IMG/VR virus record: IMGVR_UViG_3300035670_000901 | Coordinates: 1 to 31,375 of that record | Strand: one strand, 5' to 3' | Length of the DNA stretch: 31,375 bases | From: a virus | In this document: one piece after another, positions 1 to 31,375 of the stretch | How positions within the stretch are numbered: position 1 is the first letter of the stretch | Layout: each line of letters opens with the position of its first letter | Notes under the pieces: model-generated | Database searches by the model: none | What the model was told of the DNA's origin: nothing | The model's input: only the letters and a program-made list of their open reading frames with translations | Program-made: the position numbers and the translations under genes

Positions 1-326
1 TCTTCCGTTTCAATCTTGTTTGCTTTGTGAATGCGTTTGATGAACTCATCCAGTGCGGCAATCTCGTTTTGCTTCCAATCAAGTGCAAACCACTTATGTG
101 CCGGGCATGATGTAAAACGGAACTTAACCTTTAAGGGCATGAAGCAACCGCAAAGCTTTATCTTTTCCTTATAGTAGGTTACGCTGTTTTCTTCGGGATC
201 AACCTCTTTGCCTGCACCGGCTATGAGTGTGCCGCATGATGAAGTTGATGCCACAAAGAACTTACATTTTTTGCAAGTGTTCAGCCTCTCTCGCTGTATG
301 TGCAATGGCACGTTGAAGTTTAACAT
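1..326 (-). CDS. Cysteine-rich hypothetical protein, 3' end cut by the window
   Basis: Reading leftwards from an ATG at 324-326 the frame stays open to the window edge, giving about 108 visible residues. The N-terminus reads MLNFNVPLHIQRERLNTCKK. Cysteines are placed like zinc ligands: C18-x2-C21, C31, C59-x-C61, and C74-P-A-H77. There is no signal peptide or membrane segment. Its first 65 bases overlap the 3' end of the sigma-like gene in another frame, which suggests translational coupling in a minus-strand operon. I recognise the look (CKKC, LCGCFM, CPAH) from uncharacterised Bacteroidetes phage proteins but know no function. A small zinc-binding protein is inference from the cysteine spacing. 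The C-terminal part and the stop lie outside the window. Confidence 0.7.
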   Translation of the reverse strand, partial: MLNFNVPLHIQRERLNTCKKCKFFVASTSSCGTLIAGAGKEVDPEENSVTYYKEKIKLCGCFMPLKVKFRFTSCPAHKWFALDWKQNEIAALDEFIKRIHKANKIETE

Positions 327-819
327 ATTCTCGTATTCTTTTTAATGCTCTGTGTATTGATTGCCGCAGATAGTTGTATGGTATTCCTGTTTCCCTGCTC
401 AATTCTTTGTAGTCAAAATCGGGTTTTGAGTATAGACGTAGTAAAATACTATCGTATTCATTCAAACGCCCTATTGCGCTGTACAGATATTCACCGTCAA
501 TAAATGCACCTATCCACGTTTCATCTTGTTTAGTATCTACTAGTTCGCGCTCTGTGTGCAATTCGTAGTATTTGCGATACTTAACAGCGTAATCACTGCG
601 ATTGCTATGCCATGATAGCCACAATGCACGATTGACATATTGCTCTATCTTACCACCGCACACGATATCCACCACGTCCTGTTCTGGTCTATCCATTAGC
701 CGGGCAAGTACCTCATGTAGTAGATCACTTGCCCTGTTTTTATCGTGAGTAAGCCCCGTGGCCTTGTTAAGCCATTCGCCGTAATGCTTTGATATGTGGC
801 TACTTACGCAGTGATGCAA
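262..819 (-). CDS. Sigma-70-like / helix-turn-helix transcription factor, TTG start
   Basis: The 185-residue protein has the layout of a small sigma-70-like factor. Residues 28-45 (NRASDLLHEVLARLMDRP) resemble region 2 helices. Residues 115-165 resemble region 4, with an acidic-aromatic lead (RLNEYDSILLRLY) and a helix-turn-helix (YKELSRETGIPYNYLRQSIH), followed by basic residues. Such proteins direct host RNA polymerase, or act as regulators, inside the cell. There is no ATG between the upstream in-frame stop and residue 41; the only usable start at the domain edge is TTG at 817-819, so the start is unusual. A promoter candidate at 886-914 would give a leader of about 60 bases. It is divergent from the early cluster, so a role in early/late switching is plausible but inferred. 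It could instead be a sigma-like regulator that does not bind core polymerase. Confidence 0.65.
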   Translation of the reverse strand: MHHCVSSHISKHYGEWLNKATGLTHDKNRASDLLHEVLARLMDRPEQDVVDIVCGGKIEQYVNRALWLSWHSNRSDYAVKYRKYYELHTERELVDTKQDETWIGAFIDGEYLYSAIGRLNEYDSILLRLYSKPDFDYKELSRETGIPYNYLRQSIHRALKRIREYVKLQRAIAHTAREAEHLQKM

Positions 820-3108: not shown

Positions 3109-3200
3109 CTCCTTCCGTATGAAAACATTAAAAATCCCATCACTACCGTATTGCCTATAGCACGTCCGTGCACGGGGGAGCCTTTACGTGTAGTGGTGGG
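3109..3200 (+). ncRNA. Candidate structured leader RNA or small RNA
   Basis: This gene-free stretch of about 110 bases starts at the predicted transcription start of the 3073-3103 promoter. CCCATCACTA (3136-3145) can pair with TAGTGGTGGG (3191-3200) as a 10-pair helix with one G-U. Inside, CCGT (3146-3149) pairs with ACGG (3172-3175), stacked on it, around a hairpin GCAC/GTGC (3160-3163 with 3168-3171). A competing pairing, CACGT (3161-3165) with ACGTG (3186-3190), would stack on the same outer helix. Two exclusive inner folds inside one helix ending 11 bases before the next ATG look switch-like. A 13-codon frame (3119-3160) could be a leader peptide. I do not recognise a known RNA class. Confidence 0.4.
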
Positions 3201-3211
3201 TATTTAGTTTT

Positions 3212-3427
3212 ATGTATCTTGATTCAGGTAGATCAATAGTGGAAACTAATCCGCCACGTTTTCGTGACATACGCTCACAATGTTTTGTTCAATTTTCAAG
3301 AATCAATGGCGCTATTTTCATGTCAGCATATCGTGATTCAGATGGTGAAGGAGTATACATTTCAATGACTGATTATGAAGTTAACCGCATGATTGAACAT
3401 CTTCAAAAATTACTCGATGAAAAATAA
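3212..3427 (+). CDS. Small hypothetical protein
   Basis: A 71-residue protein starting MYLDSGRSIVETNPPRFRDI. It appears to fold as beta strands (RSQCFVQFSRINGAIFMSAYRDSD, then GVYISMTDYE) followed by one helix (VNRMIEHLQKLLDEK). It has no membrane segment or recognised motif. It is the first gene after the promoter at 3073-3103 and the candidate structured RNA, and its end overlaps the replication initiator by 11 bases, so the two are likely co-expressed. It could be a small partner or regulator of replication, judged only from position. Confidence 0.55.
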   Translation: MYLDSGRSIVETNPPRFRDIRSQCFVQFSRINGAIFMSAYRDSDGEGVYISMTDYEVNRMIEHLQKLLDEK

Positions 3428-4211
3428 CGGCTATTCATATTCACGGGCATGGTTTGACTACGCCTTTGAACACCCGGAGCATGTTACTGCTTCGCATGGT
3501 ATCCTATACCTATGGCTTGTTGAGATTAATAACCGATTGGGGTGGGTAGATATATTCCAAATCACAGCCAGTGAGTGCATGCAAGGCATGGGCTGTAAAA
3601 GCTACAACACATACAAGAAGTGTTTTGACCAACTTGTTGAATGGGGGTTTGTTAAGGTAGTAAAGAAGGCAGTCAATCAACATCAATGCAATATAGTTGC
3701 TCTATCAAAATTTGACAAAGCACTTAATAAAGCACTTGACAAAGCATTGCAAAAGCACTTGACAAAGCAAAGTGAAAGCACAGTACAAAGCAATGTTGAA
3801 AGCAACTGCGATATTCATAAACAAGTAAACAATAAACCACAAACCATAAACCATAAACGTAGTGCATTCGCACCACCAAACGAAAATGATGTTTATAATT
3901 TCATGGGTGAGTATTCAGTTCAAAAGCACATGCAATGGACTGATGAAAAAATAAACACCGAGGCCGCGAAATTTTTTAACTACTACGAAGCCAATGGTTG
4001 GAAGCAAGGCCGCAATCCGATGAAAGATTGGAAAGCTTCAGCACGTAATTGGATGGTAAATAATTCTAAATTTGACAACTCAAATAATTCAAAAAACGTA
4101 ATTCAAGATGAAAGAGCAAAACGCATTAGCGAACTTGAAGAGTTCCGCAAGCAGTACCGAAGTGCAATTGCACGAGATTTTGGCACTGAAAACATCACCA
4201 ACGCTGGCTGA
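3417..4211 (+). CDS. Replication initiator, winged helix with DnaD/O-like C-terminal part
   Basis: From the ATG at 3417 the protein is 264 residues. Residues 10-98 look like the winged-helix DNA-binding part of phage replication initiators (SRAWFDYAFEHP through FQITASECMQGMGCKSYNTY to LVEWGFVKVVKKA). Residues 99-150 are a low-complexity linker with repeated KAL units (KALNKALDKALQKHL), encoded by the iteron array. Residues 158-215 carry a tail typical of initiators and replisome organisers (AAKFFNYYEANGWKQGRNPM then DWKASARNWM). It would bind the origin and recruit helicase or loader. The start at 3417 overlaps the preceding gene by 11 bases; the earlier start at 3393 has no support. Its 3' end overlaps the next gene by 104 bases. 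Confidence 0.75.
   Translation: MKNNGYSYSRAWFDYAFEHPEHVTASHGILYLWLVEINNRLGWVDIFQITASECMQGMGCKSYNTYKKCFDQLVEWGFVKVVKKAVNQHQCNIVALSKFDKALNKALDKALQKHLTKQSESTVQSNVESNCDIHKQVNNKPQTINHKRSAFAPPNENDVYNFMGEYSVQKHMQWTDEKINTEAAKFFNYYEANGWKQGRNPMKDWKASARNWMVNNSKFDNSNNSKNVIQDERAKRISELEEFRKQYRSAIARDFGTENITNAG
3712..3805 (+). repeat. Iteron array, eight direct repeats inside the initiator gene
   Basis: Eight contiguous 11-12 base units, each containing AAAGCA, whose cores start at 3717, 3729, 3741, 3752, 3764, 3775, 3787 and 3799. Units 1, 3 and 5 share TTGACAAAGCA exactly. Spacing of about one helical turn puts all sites on one face of the DNA. Two 11-base units break the codon phase, so the repeat is a DNA-level rather than a purely protein-level pattern. 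Location in the initiator gene matches lambda, whose origin iterons lie in gene O. Confidence 0.6.
3806..3858 (+). other. AT-rich stretch next to the iterons, candidate DNA unwinding element
   Basis: Immediately after the iterons the plus strand becomes A-rich and very low in G, with short repeats such as ACCATAAACCATAAAC (3843-3858). Together with the iterons this is the two-part layout of a lambda-type replication origin. It codes for the polar linker of the initiator (HKQVNNKPQTINHK). Origin function is inferred. Confidence 0.5.
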
Positions 4212-4794
4212 AATTCGCAAGAATAAAAATCAGCAAGCAACGGTAAACATTATGGTGGCAATGATGGATATGTGCCAACAATACTTTAACCTTCAGCAAC
4301 CAATGAACGCACAACAACTTGCACTCACAGCAGAGTTGATGCTTGAAGATTACTACTACCTACGAGTGGATGAACTGCAACTTTGTTTCCGCATGGCAAT
4401 GAAGGGTGAGTTTGGCCCGGTGTATAACCGCATCGATGGTCAGGTATTCTTTGAATGGATACGCAAGTTCATGACCAAAAGACAAGCGATCAGTGAACGC
4501 ATTAATTTGGAAAAGCAGAGCAACAACAACATCTACGAAATGTTCCAACACCCGCAGGTGGTAGATGCTATCCAGCAGGCAGCGGATAAGTTGAAGATAC
4601 AGGAAGCTCCAGTGCAGGAAGCAAAGCGCAGCAATCCACCGCAGATTGAAATAGCATTGATGCGTGAGTACGATGACCTGCCAGCGTGGGACAATGACTT
4701 GCGCTTCCGTGTGTACAAGAACAAGCCGTATCAATTCACTGAGTACAGGAAGGAGCGTTACAGAGAACTAATCGAAAACCAAAATGAATACTGA
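4108..4794 (+). CDS. Hypothetical replication-associated protein
   Basis: A 228-residue soluble protein. The conserved-looking core (residues about 32-140) begins PTLAEIRKNKNQQATVN and includes AELMLEDYYYLRVDELQLCF, then GPVYNRIDGQVFFEWIRKF. I recognise this core from Bacteroidetes proteins encoded beside initiators (from memory, DUF6633-type), with no known function. The C-terminal part is polar and charged. By position it could be a helicase loader or initiator partner, as in lambda O-P or DnaD-DnaB pairs; no ATPase motif is visible, so this is only context. The start at 4108 overlaps the initiator by 104 bases; the next in-frame ATG (about 4252) would remove part of the core. Confidence 0.6.
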   Translation: MKEQNALANLKSSASSTEVQLHEILALKTSPTLAEIRKNKNQQATVNIMVAMMDMCQQYFNLQQPMNAQQLALTAELMLEDYYYLRVDELQLCFRMAMKGEFGPVYNRIDGQVFFEWIRKFMTKRQAISERINLEKQSNNNIYEMFQHPQVVDAIQQAADKLKIQEAPVQEAKRSNPPQIEIALMREYDDLPAWDNDLRFRVYKNKPYQFTEYRKERYRELIENQNEY

Positions 4795-19733: not shown

Positions 19734-21803
19734 TTATTTCTTTATCTCTTTACTTGCAATGTTATTAGTTGTGACTGCATCAGGTGAACCATTCACAGCA
19801 ACTATCTCAATAGTGTAGATAGCAGGCAAGGTTACACCAATCCAAGTTGTGCTATACACACTGCCTAATGTTACACTTCTACCCGGCTGTATTTTATCGG
19901 TACGATTCCACACGCCTTGAAAGCCACCTGCAAAACCATGCTTTACCTTCAGTGATGTAATAGGCACTGTGCCTTTATTGGTGAACTTATAGCGTATGCG
20001 CACACGATTAGCATCTAGCCATTCATAACTTTCAATGCTGACTTCTGCATCCGTTCCATCCGCAGGTGGATTGATAGGTGCAATGTTACATCCAGTGCTT
20101 ATGCTGTTATCATTCTCATTCAATTCAACAATAACATTGTTTGGATCAATAGAAAGTGTGAACGTGCTATTGCCTGTTTGGTTGTTAGGCAGGGCAAATG
20201 GTGCGGTCATGGTTGTTACCTGTTGCCCTTTTGGTATGGTCACATCTCCAGTGTAGAAAGTAAACACACTACCATCGGGACGTTTGAACAACAGGCTAAC
20301 TGTTGCAATGATGTCTTTGCTATATACCCTGTCTACGTTAACGCTATACGTGACATTGATAGTTGAGCCTTGCACTGCATTTGCAGGTGTGCTAATCGTA
20401 CCAAATAGATTGAACTCTGGTGTTGGCACAGGTACAGGTTCACCACCGTCTAATGATTTGGCAATGGTCACAGCACTAAACATGTCAACTACTCCGTAAC
20501 CTAGTTCCGCACTCTTACCATTAGCATCATAAACATAACCGCCCGTCTTACGTGCAGCTTGTCGCAACACATCTGCTACCTGTGCCTCTGTCAATGATGG
20601 ATTAGCAAGCAAAGTACTTGCAGCAATAGCCGCTAATACAGGGCATGAACACGATGTGCCACTAAAGTTGGTATAGTTGCTTGTGGTGTTGTACCCATTT
20701 GCACCTGTGCGGTCAACTGTGGGGCATGATGTGCCGGGTGTTGCGGCAAACAACTTTGGTCCGTAGTTGCTAAATCCTGCACGGGTGTTTGTAGTTGTGC
20801 TTGCTCCTACTGCGTGTACCATTGGATAGATAGCAGGTGCTTGTGTGAAGTTACTGCTATACTGGTTACCACTTGATGCGAAGATTGGAATACCCTTACC
20901 CTCACGTCCTAGCGTTTTGATTTGCGTCAATCCGTTTTGGAATATCGGATAACTCCAAGTGCCACCACCACCCCACGACATTGATACGGCAAGGCAGTTA
21001 GGATTAGCAATTACCTTGTTAGCGGCAAGTGTAAGGATAGTGTCCGATGTGCTAAACCCCCCACCCGATGTACTGCCATAACCGATATGCAAGAATTGCA
21101 CTTTGAGTTTGTTGTTTCCTAGTGAGGAAACACCTACACCATTATCGGTAGTTGCACATATCAAACCACTGCAACAAGTACCGTGCTTTTCAAATTCACT
21201 AACCGGGTTGACATCTGCTGCATTGGTAACGCAATTCCAAGATGTATCGCTAATCATGCCCTGCAAATCTTCATGCCCTGTTTCGCAAGCAATATCCAGT
21301 ACTGCAACTTCACCATAGGCAGCACCATCGATTAATGCCCACGCCTCGCGTGCCTTCACATTAGGCAAATGCCATTGTGATTCGTAGCTGTATGCATCTG
21401 CATCCGTTTGAAATGGTTGGATATAATCAGGCTCTACGCTCGTGAATAGCTTCGTGTTCATTAGCGCAGTATAGAACTCATCAAATGATGCAAACGCAGG
21501 TACTTCTACAAAGAAAGTATTAGTAAGCTCGAATGATTGCGTAATAATGATTTTGTTCTTTTGCAAGTAGATTTCAGCTGCGCCCATATCAGGGGCAACT
21601 AAGATAGCAAGACCAGTAGGGATGTTATCGAGTGCACCGTCTACTTGGTATGCCTGCGATACTTTGGCAGCATCAGGGGCAACATAGTTAGCATCTTCAA
21701 AAACAATAATGCCAAATGGCTCATGCACGGCACGTACATTAGGCTTGTTCTTGTTCTTTTCAAAGGACGCTTTGTCCTTAAATTTAACAGCATTTATTTT
21801 CAT
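19734..21803 (-). CDS. Subtilisin-like serine protease with C-terminal CARDB-like domains
   Basis: A 689-residue protein. The S8 catalytic set is complete: Asp170 in VAVLDIACETGHED, His208 in KHGTCCSGL, Asn313 in ASSGNQ, and Ser384 in FSGTSCSCP. The canonical GTSMA is here GTSCS, and each triad motif has nearby Cys. Residues 65-130 look like an inhibitor-type propeptide. Residues about 463-590 and 595-689 are Ig-like CARDB-type domains (STINVTYSVNVD and RVRIRYKFTNKGTVPITSLK). There is no signal peptide, so it either acts in the cell or is carried in the virion. It sits between the XkdF-like protease and the scaffold, and its ATG overlaps the protease stop. Roles in prohead maturation or as a virion enzyme are both inference. 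Confidence 0.85.
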   Translation of the reverse strand: MKINAVKFKDKASFEKNKNKPNVRAVHEPFGIIVFEDANYVAPDAAKVSQAYQVDGALDNIPTGLAILVAPDMGAAEIYLQKNKIIITQSFELTNTFFVEVPAFASFDEFYTALMNTKLFTSVEPDYIQPFQTDADAYSYESQWHLPNVKAREAWALIDGAAYGEVAVLDIACETGHEDLQGMISDTSWNCVTNAADVNPVSEFEKHGTCCSGLICATTDNGVGVSSLGNNKLKVQFLHIGYGSTSGGGFSTSDTILTLAANKVIANPNCLAVSMSWGGGGTWSYPIFQNGLTQIKTLGREGKGIPIFASSGNQYSSNFTQAPAIYPMVHAVGASTTTNTRAGFSNYGPKLFAATPGTSCPTVDRTGANGYNTTSNYTNFSGTSCSCPVLAAIAASTLLANPSLTEAQVADVLRQAARKTGGYVYDANGKSAELGYGVVDMFSAVTIAKSLDGGEPVPVPTPEFNLFGTISTPANAVQGSTINVTYSVNVDRVYSKDIIATVSLLFKRPDGSVFTFYTGDVTIPKGQQVTTMTAPFALPNNQTGNSTFTLSIDPNNVIVELNENDNSISTGCNIAPINPPADGTDAEVSIESYEWLDANRVRIRYKFTNKGTVPITSLKVKHGFAGGFQGVWNRTDKIQPGRSVTLGSVYSTTWIGVTLPAIYTIEIVAVNGSPDAVTTNNIASKEIKK

Positions 21804-29077: not shown

Positions 29078-29596
29078 CTATCTTTTGTTTAACAGTAATC
29101 GATTCTCTATTGATTTAATGTAGCTATCCATTAGCTTGTCCTTGTACTCGTCCCACGTATCATCTATTGCCTCTGTGTAGTAGTAAATACCTTCAATGCC
29201 TTTTTGACCGATGCTTTTTGCAATGGCAAATGCAGCACTTTTGATGTTGCTCTCTGTGGCTTTGATAAACTCGCCCTGTCTGTTGCGAAGCTTTAAAGGC
29301 TTCAACCTAATCCAATCCTCAATAGGTTTGACAGGTGGCATCTTCGCACCGGCTCTACGCCCAAACTCAATAACATCTGCGTACTTACCTGCGTCATCAT
29401 TAGATACGGTGAAGTCAATGGTGGGTTTGTTGTATCGTATCTTGAGATTGTAGTATAGTGAATTGAGCAACCTGCCCGATGCAACACGATTGACAGTCTT
29501 ACCACGTACACGTCTTTTGATACGTAGGTTAGATTGCGCACGCTCAACAACAGCTAGTGCATACTCGTTTAATATGTCCTCAAACTCACTTGCCAT
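29078..29596 (-). CDS. HK97 gp10-like tail completion protein
   Basis: A 172-residue protein resembling the HK97 gp10 family, which sits at the head-proximal end of the tail: an opening helix (DILNEYALAVVERAQSNLRI), basic middle (KRRVRGKTVNRVASGRLLNS), YADVIEFGRRAGAKMPPVKP, and a closing helix (AAFAIAKSIGQKGIEGIYYY). The YxxxxEFG and PxxP positions are the recognisable family marks. It would help join tail to head. Its ATG overlaps the stop of the fibre-like gene by 1 base and the next gene starts 1 base after its stop. Confidence 0.7.
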   Translation of the reverse strand: MASEFEDILNEYALAVVERAQSNLRIKRRVRGKTVNRVASGRLLNSLYYNLKIRYNKPTIDFTVSNDDAGKYADVIEFGRRAGAKMPPVKPIEDWIRLKPLKLRNRQGEFIKATESNIKSAAFAIAKSIGQKGIEGIYYYTEAIDDTWDEYKDKLMDSYIKSIENRLLLNKR

Positions 29597-31375
29597 TAGC
29601 TACGTTCAATAATAAATGCCATTGATTGTACCTGTGCGCTTGCCGAACTTGCACCATTGATAAGTTGAAAGCTTATCTTATCCCCGGCTGAAACAGCCAC
29701 AGTGTTGACCGTATCACTTAGTGTAGCAAAGTTGCCATCTGCATTGGTAAGCGTAACACCAATACCAGAGTTCACACCATTAATGCGCAGGTTAATTGTA
29801 AGCGAACCTGTCGCTGGCTGTATGGTATTATTAGTCATGTAAAAGTCTTTGATAGTACCACTCACAGCAGACACCACTTGTCTATTCGTTTCCGTTCCGT
29901 TGTATGTGGCAATACCTGCAACCGCTGCATACACTGTTGCACCTGATACAACACTTGCAGTGTACACCTGCGCAAATGATATCGTGTCTTTTTTGTTATT
30001 GATCTGCGTTTGAATTGCAGATGTAACACCATCCAAATAACCGAACTCTGTATTTGATACGTTACCTGTTCCGATGTTAGCTGCATCAATGCCCGTTGGC
30101 AAATCACTTGTTGTTAATGTGTCATTCTCCCAAAGGCTAGTTGCAGAATTGTATATTAATAGATCACGATTTGCAACCGATGTAATCAATACTCCTTCAT
30201 CTGAGTTAATGTTACTACCTAAAGTCGTACGTATCATTAACGTGCCATTGTTTGCAGCATGAACTACGGCTGCGGCTACTATGATATTGTTTGGCGCAAC
30301 GGGCATGGTTGTTTGAAATTCACCTGCCACCGTTGTTGACACGTATAAGATATCTCCGTCATTGTATGCACTGGTATCTACACCACGCATCTTACCAAAG
30401 TGATATACTTTGCCATCCGTGTTATTCGTTAATTCTTCAGATGTTATACCCATGTAGTATGTGCTTGGGTATGTTCCATCTGCAAGCATTGGTGCTATCA
30501 ATAACCTGCCACTATTGCCCGTAGTACCTGCAAAGCGCACAGCTGTTCCTTTGGGTATGGTTGAACCTGTGGTATTACGCACATGGTAAAAAGTATCTTC
30601 ACCTACCTTTTGCGTTGTGCCATTCATTATCAATGCAAGTGTTTCTGCATTGTCATCCCAGTACACGCTGCCTTGAGTAACAGGTATGTTAGTTGGCGTG
30701 ATATCAAATTCAAGATTGCCAAGTTGAATACCAAATTCACCAAGATTCACATCCTGTGTAGCACCTGTGTACGGCACATAACCTGTAACCGCTGCTGGTG
30801 TTTGCGCTTCCCAATCTCCCGATGTGCTGTTGTATGTAAGCACCTGCCCGTTCGATGGTGTTGGTGCGTTAACATCTGCAAGGTCATCAAGGTTAGTTGG
30901 TATGGTGGGTAGATTGCTTAAATCATTGTAATCCCCGGATGTTGCAACTGCGGCTAGTGCTTGATTCTTGAACTCGTTGCCGCTTGAAAAATAAATGAGC
31001 GCATCGCCATCATTAGGATTATCAAGATACACATCAGTTAGGTCATCAAGCGAAGTTGGTATAGTTGGAAACGTTTGCAATGCACCGCTACCATCAATGT
31101 ATTCGCTAGCATCTCCTGCCCCTGTTATTGCCAAAGTTCCCGAAGTGGTAACAGGCGAACCGCTAACATTGAACGCAGAAGGTGCTGTAAGTGCTACGCT
31201 TGTAACCGTGCCCGAACCACCACCACCACCACCTCCCGTAGCAGCAATAGTTACACTACCATCTCCATTGTCGGTAAGAGTTACATTCGTTCCTGCAACA
31301 AGGTCAAGTTGGCTCTGCACTGCATTGTCAACATTGTTAACCTGTAATAGTATTCCGATAGGCGTTCCACTACCA
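29596..31375 (-). CDS. Tail fibre-like protein, 5' end cut by the window
   Basis: About 592 residues are visible, and the frame is open through the right edge: codons upstream of a GTG at 31318-31320 continue with GSGTPIGILLQVNNVDNAVQ, so that GTG is not the true start. Features: a Gly hinge (GGGGGGGSG), two repeats of the fibre motif with SLDDLTDV or NLDDLADV and GDYNDLSNLPTIP, a beta-rich shaft (GYVPYTGATQDVNL), and a C-terminal part with GNVSNTEFGYLDGV and a beta-sandwich-like end. Repeats of this kind are common in phage fibres and receptor-binding proteins. It opens the visible late operon. The N-terminal attachment part is outside the window. Confidence 0.75.
   Translation of the reverse strand, partial: GSGTPIGILLQVNNVDNAVQSQLDLVAGTNVTLTDNGDGSVTIAATGGGGGGGSGTVTSVALTAPSAFNVSGSPVTTSGTLAITGAGDASEYIDGSGALQTFPTIPTSLDDLTDVYLDNPNDGDALIYFSSGNEFKNQALAAVATSGDYNDLSNLPTIPTNLDDLADVNAPTPSNGQVLTYNSTSGDWEAQTPAAVTGYVPYTGATQDVNLGEFGIQLGNLEFDITPTNIPVTQGSVYWDDNAETLALIMNGTTQKVGEDTFYHVRNTTGSTIPKGTAVRFAGTTGNSGRLLIAPMLADGTYPSTYYMGITSEELTNNTDGKVYHFGKMRGVDTSAYNDGDILYVSTTVAGEFQTTMPVAPNNIIVAAAVVHAANNGTLMIRTTLGSNINSDEGVLITSVANRDLLIYNSATSLWENDTLTTSDLPTGIDAANIGTGNVSNTEFGYLDGVTSAIQTQINNKKDTISFAQVYTASVVSGATVYAAVAGIATYNGTETNRQVVSAVSGTIKDFYMTNNTIQPATGSLTINLRINGVNSGIGVTLTNADGNFATLSDTVNTVAVSAGDKISFQLINGASSASAQVQSMAFIIERS

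Follow-up and report, generated by a model that had tools for sequence, protein, structure and literature searches.

A probable phage replication origin inside its own initiator gene and related candidate origins in a family of Bacteroidota phages and prophages

Positions 3712-3858 of a 31,375-nucleotide viral DNA (IMG/VR record IMGVR_UViG_3300035670_000901, positions 1 to 31,375; hereafter the window) very probably serve as a phage replication origin that lies within its own initiator gene. This reading draws on the repeat array itself, its conservation at the DNA level, its co-inheritance with a DNA-binding domain, the predicted fold of that domain, and a replication-gene context. In the mechanism that we favour, the N-terminal winged helix of the initiator would bind eight head-to-tail iterons, with about one monomer per helical turn, and the resulting nucleoprotein complex would open the adjoining A-rich tract. 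The C-terminal domain, together with the protein encoded by the overlapping gene downstream, would bring in the replicative helicase. From this architecture we infer that the initiator binds the array, that the tract melts, that the helicase is loaded, and that replication actually starts at the array.

The initiator gene occupies 3417-4211 on the plus strand, with ATG 3417 as the preferred start and a product of 264 aa. It is assigned on the basis of its open reading frame, the AlphaFold model, its N-terminal family, and the PHROG matches of its siblings. In the middle of the gene, eight head-to-tail iterons of 11-12 bases (3712-3805, plus strand) code for residues ~99-130, which form a linker. 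Each iteron carries an AAAGCA core. The cores are located at 3717-3722, 3729-3734, and 3741-3746 in codon phase 0, at 3752-3757 and 3764-3769 in phase 2, and at 3775-3780, 3787-3792, and 3799-3804 in phase 1, all on the plus strand. They span 3717-3804 with core-to-core steps of 12,12,11,12,11,12,12. The two 11-base steps move the reading frame, so that identical core DNA yields K-A at first, (x)K-H/K-Q next, and E-S/Q-S at the end. Elsewhere in the 31,375 bases of the window, at most two plus-strand copies of AAAGCA occur within any 95-base stretch. Directly 3' of the iterons lies an A-rich, G-poor tract of 49 bases (3810-3858, plus strand), 28 of them A and 2 of them G (73% A+T), considered a candidate DNA unwinding element owing to its composition and synonymous constraint. 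Within it, ATAAACC heptamers recur with a period of 7 at 3827-3858. The original prediction had already described the contiguous iterons with their core, the AT-rich stretch behind them, and the shift of codon phase by two 11-base units, all of which hold with their coordinates. Its spacing of about one helical turn between the cores is an approximation. The DNA helix has 10.5 bp per turn, the mean step is ~11.6 bp in the window array and 11.7 bp across the family, and successive monomers would thus rotate by ~40 degrees around the helix at each step. It may be guessed that the initiator monomers wrap the DNA as a filament.

The ATAAACC heptamer was also considered as a general origin marker and rejected. 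Exact arrays of it were found in 11 viral contigs, mostly intergenic by look, and the heptamer is therefore not diagnostic of an origin. In two contigs a tandem repeat stands just ahead of the ATAAACC array, namely TTGAACGACCG near 8903 of L287 and CCCAGGGGTAT near 5548 of L278, both on the minus strand. Judged by their sequence, these repeats and arrays are possibly another layout of iterons plus an A-rich tract.

The repetition is retained by the DNA beyond what the protein requires. A codon-preserving null was used in which the protein sequence is fixed and the codons are redrawn from the usage of the phage itself. None of 20,000 draws contained eight AAAGCA copies (mean 1.9, maximum 7). 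When 322 fifty-codon windows from all genes of the phage were scanned, the linker had the top copy number (8) and tied for the lowest P. As a positive control, the same codon test on lambda O flags exactly its known origin. Synonymous variation was further examined in 27 distinct close relatives from viral contigs. There, 73 of 88 N-terminal codons vary synonymously versus 0 of 15 codons with the third base in a core (Fisher 4e-10); the spacer codons have a synonymous change in 6 of 17 cases and those of the A-rich tract in 1 of 16 (Fisher 4e-9). Moreover, an independent group with ACRGCA iterons has synonymous changes at 61 of 85 N-terminal versus 3 of 14 core codons (p=5e-4). Two of its three core changes sit at the degenerate R, and 4 of its 23 A-rich tract codons vary synonymously. 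As originally proposed, the constraint on the array, and also that on the A-rich tract, acts at the DNA level.

The same design is widely spread among relatives that were fetched with the N-terminal domain alone as query and have an N-terminal identity of 31-66%. They come from viral/phage contigs and from the genomes of Pedobacter, Dyadobacter, Sphingobacterium, Flavobacterium, Chryseobacterium, Lutibacter, Winogradskyella, and other Bacteroidota; one is labelled a Clostridia MAG. The window itself belongs to a freshwater phage, the host of which is likely to be found among the Bacteroidota. Of the first 79 distinct genes, 68 exceed the codon-preserving null at P<0.05, and 68 have the RGCA core in three codon phases. 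The addition of 29 further genes brought the set to 108, a number that does not stand for independent events because the genes share ancestry. A GCA core lies on the 11/12 grid in three phases in 94 of the 108. Chains of at least 5 units are present in 97 genes, compared with at most 3 units in control stretches of 150 bases at either end of these genes. The exact 12,11,12,11 register is seen in 57 of the 108 genes, or in 65 when one missing core is allowed. Especially, the cultivated Polaribacter phage Danklef_1, with an N-terminal identity of 45%, has a homologue that is annotated as a 'transcriptional regulator' and has a C-terminus unrelated to that of the window protein. No relative was found to keep the protein linker without the DNA repeat, and even Danklef_1 retains 8-9 AAAGCA cores in three phases. 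An N-terminal relative in a Maribacter sp. HyVt-319 MAG (L196:4001-4219) has no iteron array; its N-terminal domain stops right behind the recognition helix, where an unrelated reading frame is joined to it. It is a decayed (broken) or chimeric gene copy. In the window, the orientation of the genes confounds the GC skew. In Danklef_1 (L289), nearly all genes lie on one strand; the array is at 29,333 and the detrended cumulative GC-skew minimum ~0.5 kb away at 29,913, with a non-significant skew range (P=0.34).

The predicted structure of the protein has three parts. Residues 1-96 (3417-3704, plus strand) are modelled by AlphaFold as a winged helix, with a mean pLDDT of ~70-92 per ten-residue block and the secondary structure H5-18, H25-40, E47-50, H51-58, H63-76, E79-83, E91-96. 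A putative recognition helix with a basic cap (K61, helix 63-76; KSYNTYKK; 3597-3644, plus strand) is placed by this model and by the helix-iteron association given below. Residues 118-148, within the linker, are predicted to be disordered and the C-terminus helical; the original description of a linker in a winged-helix initiator gene agrees with the model. The nearest structures in a Foldseek search of the N-terminal domain are RepA N-terminal domains (best PDB matches 4pt7, 5kbj, and 4pql), although the match is weak (probability 1.00, E 0.008-0.009, TM ~0.5 of target); the DnaD N-terminal domain ranks lower. At the sequence level, no Pfam or NCBIfam model covers the N-terminal domain, and a PDB sequence search with the N-terminal profile found nothing. 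The window protein reaches only E 0.03 against the PHROG 'replication initiation O-like', which is matched by two siblings with the same N-terminus, L174 (2.7e-16) and L135 (1e-4). A further protein with this N-terminus, L193, matches the PHROG 'replisome organizer'.

The exchangeable helical C-terminal domain (3870-4076, plus strand) is of the YYxANGWKxGRNPMKDWKASARNW type. Its sole PHROG match is phrog_15768, for which no function is assigned, and among its distant relatives there are matches to DnaD-like loaders and to replication initiation proteins. The domain presumably recruits a loader or a helicase. In phages sharing it, the annotated neighbour is a DnaC-like helicase loader (Porphyromonas phage), a DnaB-like helicase (Vibrio phage), or a primase/helicase (Flavonifractor phage). 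The downstream gene of the window (4108-4794, plus strand) matches phrog_35728 and weakly DUF6633, and it is a candidate helicase loader. In nearly all loci, the initiator gene and the gene that follows it overlap. In these loci, 25 downstream proteins including that of the window fall in one cluster of unassigned function (phrog_35728 type), 20 in one that has AAA+ DnaC-like loaders among its members, and 18 in one to which DnaB helicase and primases belong. The phrog_35728 cluster is a candidate for a new helicase-loader family. A fold search of the 4108-4794 product against the PDB gave no structural match, and its proposed loader role accordingly relies on context. Elsewhere in the window, 262-819 (minus strand) encodes a sigma-70-like protein that matches region 4 (phrog_1740) and may be a sigma factor of the phage, and 19734-21803 (minus strand) encodes a large protein among structural genes that resembles a subtilisin-like protease by eye.

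Some initiators share the C-terminal domain only (YYxxNGWKVGKNPMKDWKAA). They have unrelated N-termini and linker repeats of their own, which suggests that many more in-gene origins exist. The listed loci of this kind are L048:3965-4705, L083:2001-2615 (Flavonifractor phage Chenonceau), L051:2621-3361, and L061:3488-4294; the repeats in their linkers comprise ACGCAAGAGTAT x6, CTTTAC every 12 bp, ATGCAA, and TATATCCGAAAACGGA.

Comparison of loci further shows that the array is inherited together with the DNA-binding domain. In L039-L043 the recognition helix reads IGNKRTY in place of KSYNTYK, and the C-terminus is nearly the same as that of the window protein. The iteron of these loci is ACRGCA, mostly followed by TTG, and their A-rich tract differs from that of the window, being made of AGAAACCA octamers. 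As originally predicted, a different N-terminus is therefore paired with a different iteron. The DNA of L039 and of the window is 91-97% identical immediately upstream of the gene (3167-3416) and immediately downstream of the module (from 3867), whereas across the module itself the identity falls to 42-59%. Conversely, the module is kept and the C-terminal domain replaced in L025-L037, with L025 and L036 showing the reverse of the swap in L039. The DNA-binding domain is thus exchanged as one cassette with its iterons and A-rich tract. Additionally, iteron bases go with the residue at position 61. In the 79 genes, a basic or polar residue (K/R/H/N) at this position is accompanied by AA before GCA in 54 of 63, and other residues by the lack of AA in 15 of 16 (Fisher 3e-9). 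The association amounts to ~5 changes on the tree, and independent-pair tests are non-significant; the apparent covariation of recognition-helix identity with iteron bases is thus supportive of recognition and does not prove it.

Other explanations of the array deserve attention. One is that the array is an operator and the protein a transcriptional regulator that binds its own gene and controls early transcription, with replication starting elsewhere. The predicted winged-helix fold of the N-terminal domain would suit such a role, as would the annotation of the Danklef_1 homologue, and binding within the gene would also block transcription. We nevertheless regard an operator as improbable, since a series of six to nine iterons with a conserved A-rich tract behind it has the layout of an origin and the array is located mid-gene rather than at a promoter. 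Moreover, most relatives have a loader, helicase or primase gene that overlaps the initiator gene, and the siblings match PHROGs for O-like initiation proteins and replisome organizers.

Somewhat less probable still is an initiator-bound array that acts in copy control, incompatibility or partition without opening the strands, the true origin being elsewhere. Plasmid iterons are also used for handcuffing and partition, and the heptamers of the A-rich tract are by themselves not diagnostic. However, there is no second AAAGCA cluster in the window or in the complete Danklef_1 genome, and the adjoining A-rich tract shares the synonymous constraint of the array. The stretch does encode a low-complexity linker, predicted to be part helical and part disordered, and it could be imagined that a KAL-rich protein linker has grown by DNA slippage and has no function as DNA. 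This is scarcely credible: a single DNA core serves in three reading frames (KA, KH/KQ, ES/QS), the cores lack synonymous variation, the grid survives at 31-66% N-terminal identity, and the iterons change with the DNA-binding domain. The three-frame reading and the synonymous constraint rule out a mere protein linker. A replication origin inside the initiator gene remains the reading that we prefer.

If 3712-3858 is such an origin, the occurrence of the same design in more than 100 related genes makes the replication starts of many undescribed phages predictable. The prediction covers prophages as well as the cultivated phage Danklef_1, in which the gene is annotated merely as a transcriptional regulator. 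Furthermore, more than 100 initiators with their natural iterons, falling into two or three recognition-helix classes, offer data on how a winged helix reads an origin. The exchange of the DNA-binding domain, iterons, and A-rich tract on one side against the C-terminus and loader on the other shows initiator and origin to travel as one module, which is already known in lambdoid phages and in pPR9/pSK41 plasmids. A broader proposal is offered tentatively, and we hold it to be somewhat doubtful. In it, a Bacteroidota-wide initiator family without a Pfam/NCBIfam model would have a distinct geometry in which iterons of 11-12 bases lie head to tail and often keep a 12-12-11-12-11-12 register through three frames. 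Its monomers may form a one-per-turn filament before the A-rich tract melts, the domain and origin being traded as a cassette and the C-termini and loaders exchanged separately.

No published description of the window initiator family was found in the open-access literature searched, which gave lambda/Stx O and RepA_N as precedents. In lambda O/ori, and in O/ori of Stx phages, the origin lies in the middle of the initiator gene with iterons followed by an A-rich tract, and the loader gene P is directly downstream of O (PMC7466680). The window likewise has an in-gene array of direct iterons with an A-rich tract on the same (3') side, and its iterons fall in several codon phases, as do those of lambda O (computed as 0,2,2,1). 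In contrast, lambda has four 18-base imperfectly palindromic iterons that are 20-24 bp apart, and the window has eight head-to-tail units of 11-12 bases. Lambda has its loader gene next door; in the window this place is taken by the overlapping candidate loader gene (phrog_35728, weak DUF6633), and in many relatives by AAA+ loaders or DnaB/primase. Neither the window protein nor any of 60 aligned members matches the lambda-O Pfam family. The label 'lambda-like' in the original prediction is thus apt for the layout and way of working and not for the family, as the Pfam match and the 18-base palindromes are absent. Some C-termini paired with a window-type N-terminus match 'replisome organizer' (L193), a likeness to DnaD-like/replisome-organizer phage initiators, from which the window protein differs by a C-terminal domain that matches only phrog_15768.

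RepA_N initiators provide the other parallel. In pSK41 RepA, the Rep boxes are central within rep and the linker that they encode is dispensable, and the natural chimera pPR9 has exchanged its N-terminal domain along with the origin while retaining the C-terminus (PMC5703833). The C-termini of RepA_N proteins vary between hosts, and their iterons are semi-palindromic around a poly-A tract (PMC7145576). By a weak Foldseek match, the window protein may share the winged-helix N-terminal fold of RepA_N initiators (pSK41 RepA; V. cholerae PLE RepA), and it has in common with pSK41 RepA a mid-gene array that encodes a linker; the exchange among its relatives is of the same kind as that in pPR9. Unlike RepA_N, the family has no RepA_N Pfam match in the window protein or the aligned members, and its iterons are short and non-palindromic. 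RepA_N is found mainly in Firmicutes plasmids, whereas the window family is found in phages and prophages of Bacteroidota. By the tests made, the family stands outside the lambda-O and RepA_N sequence families. Since the same layout occurs in lambda O/ori and in pSK41/pPR9 RepA, the predicted origin of the window is of a known kind.
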